A stretch of 64,000 nt of DNA from Thermoflavifilum sp. GTDB lineage: Bacteria > Bacteroidota > Bacteroidia > Chitinophagales > Chitinophagaceae. Where the stretch lies: NCBI RefSeq assembly GCF_014961315.1, contig NZ_CP063141.1, positions 2,655,123 through 2,719,122 on the forward strand, in the 5' to 3' direction. A model generated the notes under the pieces. That model was not told the origin of the DNA, searched no databases, and saw only the letters and a list, made by a program, of their open reading frames with translations. Positions 52,562 to 59,977 of the stretch are shown in pieces (the stretch's first letter is position 1; each line of letters starts with the position of its first letter). Position numbers and translations under genes: made by a program.

Positions 52562-52602
52562 GCATGTAGAGGCAACATTTAGCTGTCTCTACATGCTTTT
52601 TT
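52562..52602 (+). terminator. intrinsic terminator of the small-protein gene
   Basis: A 10-bp perfect stem, GCATGTAGAG / CTCTACATGC, with a 15-base loop is followed by six T. The stop codon of the convergent deacylase gene lies inside the loop. Confidence 0.85.
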
Positions 52603-53670
52603 CTCCTCCTGAAACACTTCTTCCAGTAGCCTGATATACGTTTCTATTCCCTCTTTTATTTCATCAAGATAAATAAATTCGTCGGCGCTATGTGAACGAG
52701 CCGAGTCACCCGGGCCTATTTTTACAGACGGGCCGGGAATCAAAGCCTGATCGGAAGTAGTGGGCGAACCATACAATTGTTTACCCATTCGCTGTGCTGC
52801 CCGCACGATGGGATGGTCGAGCGATATCGATGAACTGCGCATACGCAATGAACGTGGCTTCACCTCACATTGCACATGCTGGCTTATCACTTCGAGGATT
52901 TCTTCATGAGTATAAGCATCTGTAACGCGAATATCTACGGTAAAATGGCAACAGGCAGGCACGACATTATGCTGCTGACCGGCCTGAATCATGGTTACAT
53001 TCATATTGACCTGGCCGAGCATGGGCGATATCTTTGGAAATTGAAACGTACGAAACCATTCGATATCGGGCAGGGCTTTGTAAATCGCATTTTCCCCTTC
53101 CTGTCGGGCTGCATGGCCGGCCTTACCATAGCTGGTACAATCCAGCACCAGTAAACCTTTTTCGGCGACCGCCATCTGGGTAAGCGTGGGCTCTCCCACA
53201 ATGGCAAATGCAAAACCGGGTAGCTGAGGCAGAATGCTTTCAATGCCGTTAAAACCCGATATTTCTTCTTCCGCGGTAGCCGTAAGAATAAGATTATAGG
53301 GCAGATCCGGTAGGTTGTAAAAATGCAGAAAGCTGGCAATCAGTGCAACCAGGCATCCACCGGCATCGTTACTACCCAGGCCATAAAGTCGCCCCTCCTC
53401 AATCGCAGGATCAAATGGATCACGGGTATATGCCGGATTGGGCTTTACGGTATCGTGATGGGAATTTAACAGAATACCTGGTTTTGAGGCATCGAAATAA
53501 CGGTTTACTGCCCAGACATTGTTTAGATGCCGATGGACAACAACTCCATGCGCCTCCAGAAATTCAGCAATCATGCTGGCTGTTTGCGCTTCTTCCCGAC
53601 TGAAAGAAGGCGTGGCGATGAGCTGACGCAGCAAGGCAACTGCGTCATGATATAAGGAAATATTCCACAT
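52579..53670 (-). CDS. M20 family deacylase of arginine synthesis (ArgE-type)
   Basis: A 363-residue zinc amidohydrolase expected to release the acyl group at the end of the pathway (N-acyl-citrulline or N-acyl-ornithine). The metal ligands are visible in LLNSHHDTVKP (His), SNDAGGC (Asp), TATAEEEISG (catalytic and ligand Glu) and FAIVGEPT. Length fits the ArgE/DapE group. In Bacteroidota that use acylornithine carbamoyltransferase, the M20 enzyme deacylates N-acylcitrulline to citrulline for ArgG; that assignment is from pathway logic. Last gene of the arginine operon. Confidence 0.88.
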   Translation of the reverse strand: MWNISLYHDAVALLRQLIATPSFSREEAQTASMIAEFLEAHGVVVHRHLNNVWAVNRYFDASKPGILLNSHHDTVKPNPAYTRDPFDPAIEEGRLYGLGSNDAGGCLVALIASFLHFYNLPDLPYNLILTATAEEEISGFNGIESILPQLPGFAFAIVGEPTLTQMAVAEKGLLVLDCTSYGKAGHAARQEGENAIYKALPDIEWFRTFQFPKISPMLGQVNMNVTMIQAGQQHNVVPACCHFTVDIRVTDAYTHEEILEVISQHVQCEVKPRSLRMRSSSISLDHPIVRAAQRMGKQLYGSPTTSDQALIPGPSVKIGPGDSARSHSADEFIYLDEIKEGIETYIRLLEEVFQEEKKACRDS

Positions 53671-53712
53671 AAAATCTGTTTAAAAATGAATACAACAATC
53701 CACCAAGCAGGC

Positions 53713-54522
53713 TTAGAGACGGATGATGGTGCCAAAGGCCCGGGTCGATGTTTCTGTTGAAAGTGCCGACAATGCGTAGGCCGGACCGATAAGCACCTGT
53801 TCAACACCGGCGCGACAGGCAGCAAAGGCATTTTCAAGCTTGGGTAAGATACCATCCCGCAAGGCTCCTTCCGCCATGAGTGCTGGCATGTCCGCAGGGC
53901 GGATCAGCGGGATCACGGAATCGGGATCATGGGGATGACGCAATACACCTTTTTGATCAAAACAAAATACGAGATGCACCCGGTAATGAGCCGAAAGTGC
54001 TACCGCTACACAGGAAGCAATGGTATCGGCATTGGTATTGAGTAAATGTCCATTCCCGTCGTGCGTCAATGGTGCCAGAACCGGCACTTCTCCAGCCTCT
54101 ACTAACCGCATAAAAGCTTCTACACGTATCCCTTCGGCCGTGAGGTCGCCAACCCAGCCGTAATCAGTTTCCTTTACGGGTCGTTTCACGGCACGCATCA
54201 GATTCATATCAGCGCCGGTAAGCCCGATAGCCGGGCATCCCAGCGCCTGCAAACGAGCCACCAGTTGCTTATTAATGAGTCCGCCATACACCATGGTCAC
54301 CAGCTGAAGGGTGGCTTCGTCGGTTATCCGACGCCCCTGTACATATTGACTGGTCACACCCAGCTGTTCGCCTATACGGGTGGCCAATTTGCCCCCACCA
54401 TGAACCAGGACTTTAGGCCCGGGCAAGGCTGCAAAAGCGTGTAAAAAATCTGCGCATGCGACAGGATCATCGATAACCTGACCGCCAATCTTCACTACAT
54501 AAAGCCGGGATAATGTGGTCAT
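53713..54522 (-). CDS. argB: N-acetylglutamate (or N-succinylglutamate) kinase
   Basis: A 269-residue amino-acid kinase phosphorylating N-acylglutamate. The KIGGQVIDDP start, VHGGGKLATRIGEQLG near residue 40, and LNTNADTIASCVAVAL near 165 are family motifs. YVQGRRITDEATLQLV is the substrate region. There is no N-terminal extension of the arginine-inhibited type, so direct feedback inhibition is less likely. It lies between the carbamoyltransferase and the M20 gene. Whether the acyl group is acetyl or succinyl cannot be read from this gene. Confidence 0.93.
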   Translation of the reverse strand: MTTLSRLYVVKIGGQVIDDPVACADFLHAFAALPGPKVLVHGGGKLATRIGEQLGVTSQYVQGRRITDEATLQLVTMVYGGLINKQLVARLQALGCPAIGLTGADMNLMRAVKRPVKETDYGWVGDLTAEGIRVEAFMRLVEAGEVPVLAPLTHDGNGHLLNTNADTIASCVAVALSAHYRVHLVFCFDQKGVLRHPHDPDSVIPLIRPADMPALMAEGALRDGILPKLENAFAACRAGVEQVLIGPAYALSALSTETSTRAFGTIIRL

Positions 54523-54539
54523 AGAAGCATGCTCATTTT

Positions 54540-55496
54540 TTATAGATGCTGTAACATTTCACTCAACACCGCCTGCGCAGCCCACACGCGATTGGCCGCC
54601 TGCTGGGTGACGATGCTGTGTGGACCATCCAGAATTTCATCGCTCAACTCTACATTGCGACGCACCGGCAGGCAATGCATCACCCGCGCATTTCGGGTGA
54701 TAGAGAGTTTTTTTTCGGTAAGCATCCATTCCGGATCATTGCTATAAATCTTGCCATAATCGCGATAGGTGCTCCAGTTTTTCACATACACAAAGTCGGC
54801 ATCGCGCAGGGCTTCGTTTTGATCATAGGTAATATAGGCTCCCCGGGTAAAGGATTCATCCAGTTCGTAATCTTCCGGATGTGTAATCACAAATTCCGCT
54901 TTTCCCCAGGCATTCACCCATTGGGCAAAGCTATTGGCCACGCACTGGGGAAGGGGTTTTACGTGCGGGGCCCAGGTCAGCACCACCTTAGGTCGAGCCT
55001 TGCTGTTGGGCCAGCATTCGTGCATGGTAATTAAATCGGTAAGGCTTTGTAGTGGATGCAGTGTGGCACTTTCCAGGCTCACTACCGGCACACCGGCATA
55101 TTTCACAAACTGCTTGATGTAGAGCTCACTGTAATCTTCTTCCTTATTCACCAGTGTAGGGAAGGTGCGGATACACAGGATATCAAAATATTTTCCCAGA
55201 ATAGGCGCGGCATCTTTGACATGTTCGCTGGTATGGCCGCTCATGATAGCGCCTTCTTCAAACTCCAGCGCCCACCCTTCTTTATCCACATTAAACACAA
55301 TCACTTCCATGCCCAGATGACGGGCGGCAATTTGCGTGCTGAGCCTGGTACGCAAACTGGGGTTAAGAAAAAGCAAACCCACGCGTTTGTTTTTCCCGAG
55401 ATGCTGATCTTTCCATGGATTGGCTTTATAGGACAGTGCCCGCTGAATAAGCGCATCGATATCCTGCACATCGTGTACGGAAAGAAATTGTTTCAT
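54540..55496 (-). CDS. argF': N-acylornithine carbamoyltransferase, probably N-succinylornithine type
   Basis: A 318-residue transcarbamylase transferring carbamoyl phosphate to N-acylornithine, giving N-acylcitrulline. The carbamoyl-phosphate motif is FLNPSLRTRLSTQ, in place of the S-T-R-T-R of ordinary ornithine carbamoyltransferase. The C-terminal MHCLPVRRNVELSDEI has HCLPV-R instead of HCLP-R-rich OTC forms. Both mark the AOTCase/SOTCase group. At the position that sets acyl specificity (Glu in acetylornithine enzymes, Pro in the Bacteroides fragilis succinylornithine enzyme) this protein has Ser90 in GHTSEH. From memory, Ser at this site goes with succinyl specificity. It lies between argD and argB. 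Confidence 0.9.
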   Translation of the reverse strand: MKQFLSVHDVQDIDALIQRALSYKANPWKDQHLGKNKRVGLLFLNPSLRTRLSTQIAARHLGMEVIVFNVDKEGWALEFEEGAIMSGHTSEHVKDAAPILGKYFDILCIRTFPTLVNKEEDYSELYIKQFVKYAGVPVVSLESATLHPLQSLTDLITMHECWPNSKARPKVVLTWAPHVKPLPQCVANSFAQWVNAWGKAEFVITHPEDYELDESFTRGAYITYDQNEALRDADFVYVKNWSTYRDYGKIYSNDPEWMLTEKKLSITRNARVMHCLPVRRNVELSDEILDGPHSIVTQQAANRVWAAQAVLSEMLQHL

Positions 55497-55505
55497 GGTG
55501 TTGAT

Positions 55506-56681
55506 TCACATTTGCTGTTTTTCCTGAAATGAAACGGTAGAAGAGGTTTGCCCGCGCATTTCTTCCAGAGCCTGCCGCAAGGCTTGCAGGAAAAATCTGG
55601 CCTCCGCTTCCTGGAGGTTAAGTGGCGGTAATAACCGTATGGTATGAGGCCTGGCTTCTCCGGTAAAAATCCGATGACCATGTAAGAGATGTGCCCGGAG
55701 TTCGGCGAAATCGGGGTGTGGGTCAAGCCCTATCATCAGTCCGCGTCCCCGGATATGCTGAATTTCCGGGAACTGACCAAGTTCTTCCATCAGCCATTTT
55801 CCCATCCGGGCTGCATGGGCCATCAGGTTCTCCTGTTCTATGACTTCCAGCACGGCCAGTGCCGCTGCACATGCCAGATATCCCCCGCCGAAAGTGGTAC
55901 CCAACATGCCTTTTCGAGCCGGGATATCGGGGTGAATGAGCACTCCACCTATAGGGAAACCATTACCCATGCCTTTGGCCATGGTAATCAGATGAGGCCG
56001 GATGCCCGCATATTGATGGGCAAAAAATTGGCCCGTGCGGCCGTAGCCTGATTGTACTTCATCCAGAATGAGTAATGCCCCATGGTGCTCACAAAGTGCG
56101 GACAGATGCTGCAAAAAGGCATCATCAGGAAGCTGTATGCCTCCCACTCCCTGAATACCTTCCACGATTACGGCAGCCACATCGCCTCCCATGGCCTGCT
56201 CTACGGCTTCCCGGTTATTTAAAGGCACAAAACTTACCTCATGCTGCTGGTTAAAAGGCGATTGAATAGCCGGATTGTCGGTCACAGCTACGGCGCCGGA
56301 GGTGCGGCCATGAAAAGATTTGTGAAAGGCGATGACTCGCTTGCGACCCGTAATAAAGGAAGCGATCTTGAGGGCATTTTCATTGGCTTCCGCACCGGAA
56401 TTACAGAGAAAAAGCCGGTAATCAGCATAACCGCTTAATTTCCCTAACTTATCGGCCAGCTCTTCCTGCAACGGATTCATCACACTATTCGAGTAGAAAG
56501 CTATTCGCCTGAGCTGTTGTTCAATTCGCTGGATATAATGTGGATGGCTGTGCCCGATAGCAATCACGGCATGGCCTCCATACAAATCCAGATACCGGTT
56601 GCCCTGTGCATCCCACAGAAACCTGCCTTCCGCCCTTACAGGCGTGATAGGCAATAATTGATATACATCGAAAAGTGGCAT
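55506..56681 (-). CDS. argD: acetylornithine/succinylornithine aminotransferase
   Basis: A 391-residue PLP-dependent class III aminotransferase converting N-acylglutamate semialdehyde to N-acylornithine. Motifs are DLYGGHAVIAIGHSHP near residue 35, FCNSGAEANE-like LFLCNSGAEANENALKIA near 90, ILDEVQSGYGRTG near 205 with the PLP Asp, and the Schiff-base Lys in MAKGMGNGFP near 235. An in-frame ATG at 56705 would overlap argC, so ATG 56681 (MPLFDVYQLLP) is chosen, 13 bases after the argC stop. Confidence 0.93.
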   Translation of the reverse strand: MPLFDVYQLLPITPVRAEGRFLWDAQGNRYLDLYGGHAVIAIGHSHPHYIQRIEQQLRRIAFYSNSVMNPLQEELADKLGKLSGYADYRLFLCNSGAEANENALKIASFITGRKRVIAFHKSFHGRTSGAVAVTDNPAIQSPFNQQHEVSFVPLNNREAVEQAMGGDVAAVIVEGIQGVGGIQLPDDAFLQHLSALCEHHGALLILDEVQSGYGRTGQFFAHQYAGIRPHLITMAKGMGNGFPIGGVLIHPDIPARKGMLGTTFGGGYLACAAALAVLEVIEQENLMAHAARMGKWLMEELGQFPEIQHIRGRGLMIGLDPHPDFAELRAHLLHGHRIFTGEARPHTIRLLPPLNLQEAEARFFLQALRQALEEMRGQTSSTVSFQEKQQM

Positions 56682-56694
56682 AATGGGTTTTGTT

Positions 56695-57687
56695 TTAAAA
56701 AACACTTGCTTTCAGTTGCAGGCCGAGCGTTTCATCCCAGCCCATCATCAGATTCAGGTTCTGTACGGCCTGTCCTGAGGCGCCTTTCACCAGATTATCT
56801 TCCACCGAATGCACTACCAGTTGATCACCAATTTTTTCCGGATAAATCAACACTTTATTGGTATTCACCACCTGCTTGATATCTACCATTTCCCGGCTCA
56901 CATGCGTGAAAGGATGCGGAGCATAGTAGTTTTCATACAGTTCAAATACTTCATCTTCGCTGAGGGTGCAACGCAACTGGGAACTCACAAAGATGCCCCG
57001 TGTGAAATCGCCCCGCCAGGGAATAAAAAACAATTGTCCATTGTAACCGGGCTGCAGGGAGAGAAGCGTCTGGTGAATTTCCCGAAGGTGCTGATGGGTA
57101 AGGGTTTTATAGGCATTCACGTTATTGGCGCGCCAGGAGAAATGTGTGCTGGCCTGCAGTTTCTGTCCTGCTCCCGTTGAACCCGTGATGGCCGTCGTAT
57201 GCACATCGGTTAACAACCCGGCTTTTGCCAGCGGTAGTAAACCCAGCTGAATGGCCGTGGCAAAACATCCCGGGTTGGCGATATCGTGTGCCTGACGAAT
57301 ACATTCCCGCTGCCATTCAGGTAATCCATAAACAAACTCGCGCCCGGCAAATTGAGCCGAAGACTGCAAACGAAAATCCTGACTTAAATCAATGATACGA
57401 ATATGCCCGGGCACCTGGTGTTCCTGTAGAAAACGTTGCGACTCGCCATGACCCATGCATAAAAACCAAACATCGGTTTGATCATCGAGCTGATCGGTGA
57501 ACTTCAGCTCCGTGTCGCCCAACAAGTCACGATGTACCCGATATATCGGATCTCCGGCGTGGCTACGGCTGTGTACAAAAGCAATCTCTACACGCGGGTG
57601 ATGCAACAAGATACGGATCAACTCACCGCCCGTATAGCCCGCGCCACCTATGATACCCACTTGAATTTTTTCCTTCATATCACTCAT
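56695..57687 (-). CDS. argC: N-acetyl-gamma-glutamyl-phosphate reductase
   Basis: A 330-residue NADPH-dependent reductase of N-acylglutamyl phosphate. The Rossmann start is VGIIGGAGYTGGELIRIL. The catalytic Cys lies in NPGCFATAIQLGLLPL near residue 140, and an active-site His region is near HFSWRANNVNAYK. The ATG at 57687 overlaps the argG stop as ATGA, indicating translational coupling and supporting this start over ATG three codons later. Length is normal. Confidence 0.95.
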   Translation of the reverse strand: MSDMKEKIQVGIIGGAGYTGGELIRILLHHPRVEIAFVHSRSHAGDPIYRVHRDLLGDTELKFTDQLDDQTDVWFLCMGHGESQRFLQEHQVPGHIRIIDLSQDFRLQSSAQFAGREFVYGLPEWQRECIRQAHDIANPGCFATAIQLGLLPLAKAGLLTDVHTTAITGSTGAGQKLQASTHFSWRANNVNAYKTLTHQHLREIHQTLLSLQPGYNGQLFFIPWRGDFTRGIFVSSQLRCTLSEDEVFELYENYYAPHPFTHVSREMVDIKQVVNTNKVLIYPEKIGDQLVVHSVEDNLVKGASGQAVQNLNLMMGWDETLGLQLKASVF

Positions 57688-58886
57688 TTTATTTCTGCCT
57701 GTTCAGCGGTTTGATACCAGATGCTCAATGCATTGGCCATGATTTTAGAAAAACCGCGAACATCCTCTCCGGTCCATGCATTGTTCATTTCTCCGTATGT
57801 GCCGAATTTACGTTGCATGAGATCGTACGGCGAAGCAATACCATTTACCTGAAAGCGATATGGGAACAAGCTCACAAACACTTTCCCGCTCACCCGTTGC
57901 TGGGAAGAGGTGAAGAAAGCCTCAATATCGCGCATCACCGGGTCGAGTAACAGACCTTCATGTACCCAGTTGCCGTAAAAGATGGATAGCTGGTCTTTCA
58001 TCATCAATTGCCATTTGGTAAGCACATGCTTTTCGAGGGCATGATGCGCTTTCAGGATAATCAGGGGACCGGGCGCTTCAAAGCCCACCCTGCCCTTGAT
58101 GCCGATGATGGTATCGCCTACATGAATATCACGTCCGATGGCAAATGCAGCAGCCTTTTCATTTAAAGCAAGAATGGTCTGCGTGGGATGATCGAAAAGC
58201 TGATCGTTGAGTCCTACCGGTTCACCTTTTTCAAACCAGAGAGTAATATCTTCCGGTTCATGCCGGCTCAGCTGATGTGGAAATGCCGTTTCCGGCAAAA
58301 ACTGATGTGAAGTAAGCGTTTCTTTCCCTCCCACAGAGGTTCCCCAGATACCTTTGTTGATGGAATAAGCTGATTTTTCAGCCGACACATCCACTCCGTG
58401 TGCTTTCAGATATTCCACCTCCTGTTCACGACTCAGGCGCAGATCGCGGATGGGTGTGATGATCTCCACTTTCGGCGCCAGTACATGAAACACCATATCA
58501 AAACGTACCTGATCGTTGCCGGCCCCTGTGCTGCCATGTGCAACAGCATCGGCCTGGATTTGCTGTGCCTGTTCAACCAGCATCAAGGCCTGCGTGATGC
58601 GCTCGGCACTGACACTGAGCGGATAGGTGTTATTTTTCAATACGTTTCCAAAAATGAGGTATTTCAGCACGCGTTCATAATAAGGTTTTACGGCATCGAT
58701 AGTGGTATGCTTCACCGCGCCCAACGCATAAGCACGTTGCTCGATCGTCTTCAGCTCATCGGGAGTAAAACCACCGGTATCGATAGTAACGGTATAGACC
58801 TCATATCCTTTTTCCGCACTCAGGTATTTTACGCAAAAGGAGGTATCCAATCCTCCGCTAAATCCCAGAACAACTTTTTTACGCAT
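57684..58886 (-). CDS. argG: argininosuccinate synthase
   Basis: A 400-residue enzyme joining citrulline and aspartate with ATP. The ATP pyrophosphatase motif LGFSGGLDTSFCVKYL is at residues 7-22. GSTGAGNDQVRFD near 118 and the SAEKSAYSINKGIWGTSVGG segment near 172 are diagnostic. Full length. It is the second gene of the operon, 9 bases after the GNAT gene and overlapping argC by 4 bases. argH is not in the window. Confidence 0.96.
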   Translation of the reverse strand: MRKKVVLGFSGGLDTSFCVKYLSAEKGYEVYTVTIDTGGFTPDELKTIEQRAYALGAVKHTTIDAVKPYYERVLKYLIFGNVLKNNTYPLSVSAERITQALMLVEQAQQIQADAVAHGSTGAGNDQVRFDMVFHVLAPKVEIITPIRDLRLSREQEVEYLKAHGVDVSAEKSAYSINKGIWGTSVGGKETLTSHQFLPETAFPHQLSRHEPEDITLWFEKGEPVGLNDQLFDHPTQTILALNEKAAAFAIGRDIHVGDTIIGIKGRVGFEAPGPLIILKAHHALEKHVLTKWQLMMKDQLSIFYGNWVHEGLLLDPVMRDIEAFFTSSQQRVSGKVFVSLFPYRFQVNGIASPYDLMQRKFGTYGEMNNAWTGEDVRGFSKIMANALSIWYQTAEQAEIK

Positions 58887-58895
58887 GGTTTCAGG

Positions 58896-59663
58896 TTAAA
58901 ATAAATCGAAGAAGAAAAACTTTTTTTTCTCCGGCATGGTACCGCCGGTTACGGGAACCTCTTCTTTTTTGCGATAAGGCTTCAGCAGCACGTAACGTTT
59001 AAAGCGCAGCCAGCGCTCAAACAGTTTCCAGTTACCTGCAAATGTTCTTCTTTTTTTACCGTTGACCCGTTGAACGGGGGTTGCAGGTACCGCAACAGCT
59101 TGTGCTTCCTTTTTCTTTTGTGCCGCCGGGTCAAACAACATGGCCGTGCAGAGGCAATTTTTCCGGTTTTTGCTCATCAATATTTCATAATTCACACAGC
59201 TCTGGCAACCTTTCCAGAATTCGTCATCATCCGTAAGTTCCGAATAGGTGACGGGAACATAACCCAGCTCAGAATTAATTTTCATTACCGCCAGCGTGGT
59301 GGTGAGACCGAATATCTTGGCTTCAGGGTATTTTTCACGCGACAATTCAAAGATTTTGCGTTTGATAGCCCTGGCCGCGCCGCTGCCCCTGAACGGTGGG
59401 GAGACAATCAAGCCTGAGTTAGCCACAAATTTGCCGTGACTCCAGGCTTCAATATAGCAGAAGCCCACCCACTCGCCAGAGGGGGTCACTGCAATTACGG
59501 CTTTGCCTTCCTGCATTTTCTGGCGGATATATTCGGGCGAACGACGAGCAATACCGGTGCCTCTGGCCTTAGCCGAGGCGGCCATTTCTTCGGTAATCTG
59601 TTCGGCATAACGGGCATCATCTGCCGTGGCTACCCGTACGATAAACGGTTGTTTGTTTTCCAA
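58896..59663 (-). CDS. GNAT acyltransferase, probable N-acylglutamate synthase of the arginine operon
   Basis: A 255-residue protein. Residues about 8-165 are a GNAT domain with the acyl-CoA loop VSPPFRGSGAARAIK near residue 88. Its place as first gene of the arginine operon suggests the missing first step, acylation of glutamate; that is inference. After the GNAT core come Cys153, Cys156, Cys170 and Cys172 (CxxC and CxC), a possible metal site, and then a basic tail of about 70 residues ending FFFFDLF. The start is TTG 59663. The ATG 13 bases upstream is out of frame. Its initiation context is nearly identical to that of the leader peptide upstream. Confidence 0.8.
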   Translation of the reverse strand: MENKQPFIVRVATADDARYAEQITEEMAASAKARGTGIARRSPEYIRQKMQEGKAVIAVTPSGEWVGFCYIEAWSHGKFVANSGLIVSPPFRGSGAARAIKRKIFELSREKYPEAKIFGLTTTLAVMKINSELGYVPVTYSELTDDDEFWKGCQSCVNYEILMSKNRKNCLCTAMLFDPAAQKKKEAQAVAVPATPVQRVNGKKRRTFAGNWKLFERWLRFKRYVLLKPYRKKEEVPVTGGTMPEKKKFFFFDLF

Positions 59664-59666
59664 CTT

Positions 59667-59682
59667 TGTTTAGCATTAAAAG
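59667..59682 (-). repeat. initiation-region repeat, copy 1 (before the GNAT gene)
   Basis: On the minus strand CTTTTAATGCTAAACA lies 3 bases before the TTG start of the GNAT gene. It matches copy 2 at 59891-59906 at 15 of 16 positions. Confidence 0.75.
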
Positions 59683-59716
59683 AACCAATAGATATGAGTA
59701 TGAAAGGATTTCAGGT

Positions 59717-59781
59717 GCACCGATGGTGAAGTGAAGCAACTGATGCAGCCGGTGCCTATCCCGCAGGGATGAGCTGCATCA
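59717..59781 (-). promoter_or_regulatory. predicted pseudoknot in the arginine operon leader
   Basis: On the minus-strand RNA, the 9-bp stem TGATGCAGC / GCTGCATCA pairs 59781-59773 with 59749-59741. Inside its loop is a 5-bp hairpin, ATCCC-TGC-GGGAT (59770-59758). The loop sequence GCACCG (59755-59750), directly next to the 3' arm, can pair with CGGTGC (59722-59717). This gives an H-type pseudoknot with no bases between the two helices. The first three bases of the structure are the leader peptide stop codon, so a terminating ribosome would open it. No U-run follows, so it is not a plain intrinsic terminator. Confidence 0.6.
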
Positions 59782-59886
59782 ACGGCGAGGTCGTCGGGGT
59801 CGGACAGTCCATCGTGTGAATGGCCTGATGGCATTTCCCCGTTCGGAAAGCTGGAAGAATTTCTGATATGAAATCCGCTGGTTCAA
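59779..59886 (-). CDS. arginine-rich leader peptide of the arginine operon (35 codons)
   Basis: Translation from TTG 59886 gives 35 residues ending RPRRPRR before TGA. Nine of the 35 residues are Arg (CGG, CGA, CGC, CGT and AGG codons), and five of the last seven are Arg. It starts about 50 bases after the predicted transcription start and ends 115 bases before the first structural gene of arginine synthesis. The TTG start and its upstream 16 bases mirror those of that gene. The stop codon is the base of a strong RNA stem. This is the expected form of an attenuator peptide: ribosomes would stall on the Arg run when charged tRNA-Arg is low. No known peptide family is recognised; function is inferred from position and codon content. 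Confidence 0.7.
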   Translation of the reverse strand: MNQRISYQKFFQLSERGNAIRPFTRWTVRPRRPRR

Positions 59887-59890
59887 TTTC

Positions 59891-59906
59891 TGTTCAGCAT
59901 TAAAAG
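59891..59906 (-). repeat. initiation-region repeat, copy 2 (before the leader peptide)
   Basis: On the minus strand CTTTTAATGCTGAACA lies 4 bases before the leader TTG. It differs from copy 1 at 59667-59682 by a single base. Confidence 0.75.
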
Positions 59907-59942
59907 TTGTGAAACGAAATATGATTTTCCTGTTATAGCACG

Positions 59943-59977
59943 CAAAGTTATGGGAAAAACTATTGATAATTTCAAAA
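59943..59977 (-). promoter_or_regulatory. promoter of the arginine operon
   Basis: On the minus strand TAACTTTG (59950-59943) is an exact -7 TAnnTTTG, with TTTTG (59977-59973) 22 bases upstream as a -33 element. Transcription would start near 59937, giving a leader of about 275 bases. It lies about 35 bases after the ypdA stop, so the arginine operon has its own promoter. Confidence 0.55.

Follow-up and report, generated by a model that had tools for sequence, protein, structure and literature searches.

A probable arginine-sensing leader frame before the arginine operon of Thermoflavifilum and related Bacteroidota

The arginine operon and its leader frame

A stretch of 64,000 nt of Thermoflavifilum sp., here referred to as the window, contains an arginine operon. 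The operon comprises seven genes on one strand (minus) and covers the complete arginine pathway. Its first gene encodes a GNAT-family N-acetyltransferase (58896..59663, minus), starts with TTG and adjoins argG. The rest of the operon (52579..58886, minus) consists of argG, argC, argD, argF' (N-acetylornithine carbamoyltransferase), argB and a gene for an ArgE/DapE-type deacylase. A GNAT protein with 89% identity to that of the window was found in a Thermoflavifilum sp. assembly. Within the Chitinophagaceae the start codon of GNAT was mostly GTG or TTG (L008, L010-L013, L044 and others), and ATG was found in much of the group here named D.

Upstream of the operon a frame of 35 codons is located on the same strand (59779..59886, minus). 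It starts with TTG at 59886, not with ATG, and ends with a TGA stop codon (59781-59779). The peptide MNQRISYQKFFQLSERGNAIRPFTRWTVRPRRPRR includes nine Arg residues, encoded at positions 4, 16, 21, 25, 29, 31, 32, 34 and 35, and the last seven codons hold five of them. These seven codons, CGA CCC CGA CGA CCT CGC CGT for R P R R P R R (59782..59802, minus), represent the presumed ribosome stall site. The distance from the leader stop to the TTG start of GNAT at 59663 is 115 nt. A promoter element of the Bacteroidota type TAnnTTTG, TAACTTTG, was read from the sequence at 59943..59950 (minus), and the transcript is predicted to start a few bases downstream of it. Relatives likewise showed TAnnTTTG-like elements before the leader. 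The initial annotation had listed the promoter element, the 35-codon frame with nine Arg codons (five within its final seven positions), the gap of 115 bases and the seven-gene operon, and all of these were confirmed.

Within the leader frame the consensus fold of four sequences of the genus contained a hairpin, TTTCC-GAACGG-GGAAA (59834..59849, minus), whose inferred role is possibly that of an RNA polymerase pause hairpin. In several other groups, too, the arg leader frame contained hairpins with a U-rich run behind them, approximately 20-30 nt before the Arg codons. These are possibly pause sites as well.

Additionally, a near-identical direct repeat of 22 nt precedes the start of the leader (59906-59884, minus; CTTTTAATGCTgAACAgAAaTTG) and the start of GNAT (59682-59661, minus; CTTTTAATGCTaAACAaAgTTG). 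The exact sequence TTTTAATGCTNAACA occurred only twice in the genome, at these two starts. A start region shared by leader and GNAT was not general among the relatives and was clear only in the species of the window. No tRNA gene was present in the window.

Conservation of the leader within Bacteroidota

Orthologous operons were gathered with the GNAT protein as query. In the first 30 relatives an Arg-ended frame was found in nearly every upstream region, about 85-150 nt before GNAT. The complete leader sample consisted of 93 loci of the family, 40 loci of other families in the class or order and 79 usable loci of GTDB genomes, with some overlap of genomes. At least two Arg codons in the last eight positions were reached by 202 leaders, which together had 170 distinct tails. 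The Arg fraction across the leaders was 0.69 at codon -4 and 0.56 at codon -2. As the detection keeps the top-scoring of several frames at each locus, some background is inherent in the score. Neither the recurrence of the tails nor the constant position nor the codon test described below depends on this scoring. In shuffled upstream regions a best frame with five Arg codons in the last eight was rare (5/1860).

Four groups of tails were distinguished, here named A to D. Group A (RPRRPRR) is that of the window genus, group B carries RRPRI, group C PRPRRGC or RPRRRPEC, and in group D two Arg codons (..RR) stand immediately before the stop codon. All Thermoflavifilum sequences shared the tail RPRRPRR with little or no change, and the residues upstream of it differed. 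Leader-bearing members included Chitinophaga, Sediminibacterium, Terrimonas, Pinibacter, Ferruginibacter, Chryseosolibacter and metagenome-assembled genomes of the Cyclobacteriaceae. Thus, the Arg-ended leader is not confined to the Chitinophagaceae but precedes the orthologous GNAT-argG operon at about 200 loci, including those of other families. The initial annotation had proposed to look in relatives for a short Arg-ended frame upstream of GNAT-argG operons with otherwise variable residues. Such a frame was indeed conserved, and the variation of the other residues was seen in the window genus and between clades.

A lone frame of 35 codons with a TTG start is not unusual, and as such it could be a chance frame or a relic without any regulation. 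However, about 200 loci share its position, the Arg tail, the codon-position bias and the association with the operon, which makes the absence of regulation extremely improbable. Judged from the sequences, conservation on this scale rules out a short frame by chance.

Translation of the leader and constraint on the peptide

For leader pairs of at least 70% identity, the differences in the 20 codons preceding the Arg tail were distributed over the codon positions 1, 2 and 3 as 1175, 1054 and 3634. As a control, the 60 nt after the stop codon read in the same register gave 3467, 3540 and 3593 and therefore no third-position bias. The leader pairs are not independent of each other, but the contrast with the control behind the stop is large. 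Since third-position changes are concentrated in the frame and not after the stop, the substitution pattern establishes that the leader frame is real and translated, as far as sequence comparison can do so.

The constraint on the peptide differed between the leader types. In HTKQ-type leaders (the NNILTHTKQFAFHAPITSGVYAVGFDVF subgroup, C1) a pN/pS of 0.13 was obtained from 307 pairs, indicating strong purifying selection. Leaders of the Chitinophaga type and of the PRPRRGC type gave a ratio of approximately 0.4. In group D (..RR types), where the constraint is weak, it was 0.74. In the window genus the leader body varies freely and the Arg tail is fixed.

Ordinary attenuators have no need of a conserved leader peptide sequence. 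As the peptide of the HTKQ type is under constraint, it might act as an arrest peptide in this subgroup. Known arrest peptides include TnaC, SpeFL and the fungal arginine attenuator peptide, the last of which senses free arginine as a nascent peptide. Applied to the arg leader, high arginine would stall the ribosome at the stop codon, a hairpin that begins there would be held open and the operon would be off. The strong purifying selection in the NNILTHTKQFAFHAPITSGVYAVGFDVF subgroup and the position of the stop codon at the foot of a hairpin in several groups, described below, are in line with such a control. However, the window genus shows no conservation of the leader body, the constraint elsewhere is weak, as in group D, and an in-frame hairpin may account for part of the constraint. 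We therefore regard control by an arrest peptide as unlikely.

RNA structure behind the stop codon

In the window a hairpin is predicted directly at the leader stop (59741..59781, minus). Its 5' arm, TGATGCAGC, opens with the stop codon TGA and its 3' arm is GCTGCATCA. It encloses an inner hairpin, ATCCC-TGC-GGGAT (59770-59758, minus), and a loop segment GCACCG (59750..59755, minus), which is complementary to and would pair with the segment CGGTGC further downstream (59717..59722, minus). This pairing was kept in other Thermoflavifilum sequences as GCACC/GGTGC, and as TGCACC/GGTGCA in L004.

The stop codon was found inside the 5' arm of the hairpin in groups A and C and in the Chitinophaga part of group B. 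Group D carried other structures close behind the leader stop.

The hairpin of group C follows the consensus TGAYAGG-ACGA-RCC..GGY-C-CCTRTCA. In 31 relatives of this group 99.4% of the cells of the equivalent hairpin were paired. Two-sided changes numbered 25, compared to 8.5 in shuffles and 0-2 when slid. Thus, covariation of the stop-codon hairpin is evident from the aligned sequences of this best-sampled subgroup. In group C 9-12 nt separate the last Arg codon from the stop, and the 5' arm has a length of 14 nt. The element was present in one copy per genome in 56 genomes.

Furthermore, in approximately 40 loci the loop of group C, ACC(A), pairs with a segment (T)GGT that lies some 30-45 nt before the first gene. 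Beyond this core the pairing is prolonged by changes that match between the two sides, and both partners were exchanged jointly in L010, L019, L081, L082 and L091. None of 5000 permutations reached the observed pairing, a count in which relatedness is ignored. The conserved ACCA/TGGT was also considered as a sign of a riboswitch or T-box; this was rejected, since both segments change together within one RNA (TTGGCA/TGCCAA, TGCCG/CGGCA and ATTAAA/TTTAAT). The pairing was absent in the Sediminibacterium-type loops, and a universal contact of loop and downstream segment was therefore rejected as well.

Outside the Chitinophagaceae a different hairpin behind the stop, CC-UAYGY-GG, was found in 14 of 78 loci, compared to 0.1 expected from shuffles (among them L099, L100, L101, L103, L106, L112, L113, L117, L120, L122, L124 and L186). 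It is absent from Rfam. A pairing of a post-stop GCGTA with the UACGC loop of this hairpin was considered and dropped, as it was seen only in some loci. None of the arg leaders tested matched an Rfam family at gathering or sensible permissive thresholds. Downstream of GNAT, a sub-threshold match to Flavo-1 RNA was found at L019:2202-2284 (37.7 bits, gathering threshold 42).

Comparison with the his and trp leaders of the same genome

The genome of the window also carries a his leader, MKRHVHHHAAQVSPGKPR, and a trp leader, MNFKYVHISWWWHGVSCKAL, both on G000:C1. They are located in L249 (~212.5-216 kb) and L256 (~217-220.5 kb), respectively, and five relatives each have them, too. In both leaders of the window genome the cognate codons stand mid-frame. 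A strong hairpin with a U-run, i.e. an intrinsic terminator, followed the his leader in 6/6 genomes and the trp leader in 6/6 genomes.

The arg leader is arranged differently: its Arg codons abut the stop, and the hairpin begins at the stop codon. No intrinsic terminator was present between leader and first gene in the window. Using the same script as for his and trp, a hairpin with U-run turned up in 29 of 202 arg loci; these cases were sporadic and their form varied, so that no conserved arg terminator could be recognized. A search for mutually exclusive hairpins yielded the stop-codon hairpin and the loop-downstream pairings but no terminator as their partner.

In a classical trp/his attenuator the stalled ribosome favours an antiterminator over an intrinsic terminator hairpin before the first gene. 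A leader with cognate codons in front of the cognate operon would suit this arrangement, and the same genome has such his and trp leaders. The lack of the terminator in the window, its scarcity among the arg loci compared to the his and trp loci, and Arg codons set against the stop instead of mid-frame nevertheless render a classical attenuator quite improbable. The match to his and trp leaders as claimed by the initial annotation was not supported in this form, as both the position of the codons and the output differ.

In every class the RNA behind the hairpin contained more C than G. We consider premature transcription termination without an intrinsic terminator, i.e. Rho-dependent, as the most likely output. 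The excess of C over G lends weak support to a role of Rho.

Alternatively, the stop-codon hairpin and the loop contact might set the efficiency with which ribosomes start on GNAT. The loop partner of group C about 30-45 nt upstream of the GNAT start, the conservation of the structure even though a terminator is missing and the mostly GTG or TTG start codons in Chitinophagaceae would all be in agreement with such a translational control. However, the computed unpairedness of the GNAT start was nearly equal for all assumed ribosome positions (0.53-0.59, group C). Sequestration of the start site was rejected, as the computed accessibility does not differ. Translational control thus appears possible but rather doubtful.

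Distribution of ArgR

Arginine control in bacteria is commonly ascribed to the repressor ArgR. No ArgR (PF02863) was found in the genome of the window, and 146 of 147 genomes of the family lacked it. The sole match was borderline, lay at the cut-off and contained an internal stop. With the exception of this one borderline match, ArgR was missing in all leader-bearing genomes tested.

In a sample of 60 genomes of the class ArgR was clear in seven, and in all seven argR ends just upstream of GNAT. At L121, L132 and L133 argR sits upstream of GNAT in the place where other members carry the leader. Clear leaders were found in 43 of the 53 genomes without ArgR and in none of the seven with it (Fisher p 5e-5, ignoring relatedness and with leader calls that are our own judgement). 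The remaining ten genomes without ArgR comprised six without a visible leader and four uncertain cases.

Proposed mode of control

Sensing of arginine by the leader is indicated by the conserved, Arg-ended and translated frame, its tie to the arg operon, the missing ArgR and the stop-codon hairpin. On these comparative grounds we consider arginine sensing by leader translation well supported, and we estimate a probability of roughly 70% that a translated arginine-sensing leader controls the arginine operon. Regarding the initial annotation, its proposal of sensing through translation of the leader is strengthened by the codon-position bias and the absence of ArgR; a classical attenuator is supported in part only, as a conserved terminator is missing.

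With ample Arg-tRNA the ribosome would pass the Arg codons and reach the stop codon. A ribosome reaches about 12 nt downstream (PMC4833913). Standing at the stop it would cover the 5' arm of the hairpin and block the hairpin during synthesis of the RNA further downstream. If Arg-tRNA is scarce, it would stall some codons upstream and the stop-codon hairpin could form. The loop of the formed hairpin may then pair with the segment nearer to the first gene, and the operon would be expressed. We infer this assignment of the ON state.

The geometry of stall and hairpin fits best in group C, given the distance of its Arg codons from the stop and the length of the 5' arm. In leaders such as that of the window, with Arg codons immediately before the stop, stalling on the final Arg codon would place the ribosome over part of the hairpin. 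The distance from stall to hairpin, the hairpin sequence and the loop pairing vary among the clades, which counts against the model. The stop-codon hairpin forms in the ribosome-free fold, too. This and the nearly equal accessibility of the GNAT start leave the switch between the ribosome states a proposal. Folding by itself discriminated neither between the two possible ON states nor between Rho-dependent termination and translational control.

Relation to known leaders

The trp and his attenuators of the E. coli type, including the his and trp leaders described above, resemble the arg leader in having a short translated frame and a run of cognate codons before a biosynthetic operon. In the arg leader, by contrast, the Arg codons lie directly at the stop, where the hairpin also starts, and an intrinsic terminator is not conserved. 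In Bacteroidota, the Bacteroid-trp RNA (RF01692) is a leader RNA before the tryptophan operon (PMC2864571). It is likewise located before an amino-acid operon of this phylum, yet that of tryptophan instead of arginine, and its covariance model matched neither the genome of the window nor the sampled members of the family.

The closest described logic is that of the speF leader orf34 of Salmonella, which has 34 amino acids, paired Arg codons in mid-frame (12 and 13), belongs to the peptide family PF10940 and controls ornithine decarboxylase (PMC6386406). According to the proposed model, a ribosome at its stop prevents the hairpin downstream of the stop from forming, whereas pausing at the Arg codons allows this hairpin to form; Rho is involved and an intrinsic terminator is absent (PMC6386406). 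A hairpin just past the leader stop is shared by both systems, and that of the arg leader includes the stop codon. However, orf34 is gamma-proteobacterial, its Arg codons are in mid-frame instead of terminal and no relation is visible. Compared by the speF core HIRRT as quoted in PMC6386406, the arg leader peptides showed no likeness to it.

Furthermore, the rbfL leader of S. aureus contains Arg codons and senses arginine by ribosome pausing (PMC13009471). While this is shared with the arg leader, rbfL targets a biofilm regulator, acts by blocking a ribosome-binding site, uses two rare codons and has the opposite sign, as low arginine represses (PMC13009471). For Flavobacterium psychrophilum, a transcriptome study gives clues of leader peptides before amino-acid operons without detail (PMC9723704). 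A leader of an arginine operon in Bacteroidota was found neither in Rfam nor in the literature searched; as subscription papers were mostly outside this literature, an earlier description is possible. Control by leader peptides is already known, as are Arg-codon leaders of other genes, and the leader of the arginine operon in Bacteroidota is probably little known.

Implications for arginine control in Bacteroidota

Tentatively, and with a chance that we rate as rather low, the leader might represent a class-wide arginine control of Bacteroidota which replaces ArgR. In this scenario the leader peptide, which in some clades would be a genuine arrest peptide responding to arginine, would let the ribosome open or close an RNA element anchored at the stop codon (hairpin and loop contact) without an intrinsic terminator.

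A large part of the Bacteroidota has no ArgR and appears to sense arginine by translation of a leader, with an RNA layout that differs from the his and trp attenuators of the same genome. The leader would provide a concrete example of control coupled to translation, in a phylum whose translation initiation is unusual. It includes at least one conserved RNA element that is absent from Rfam.
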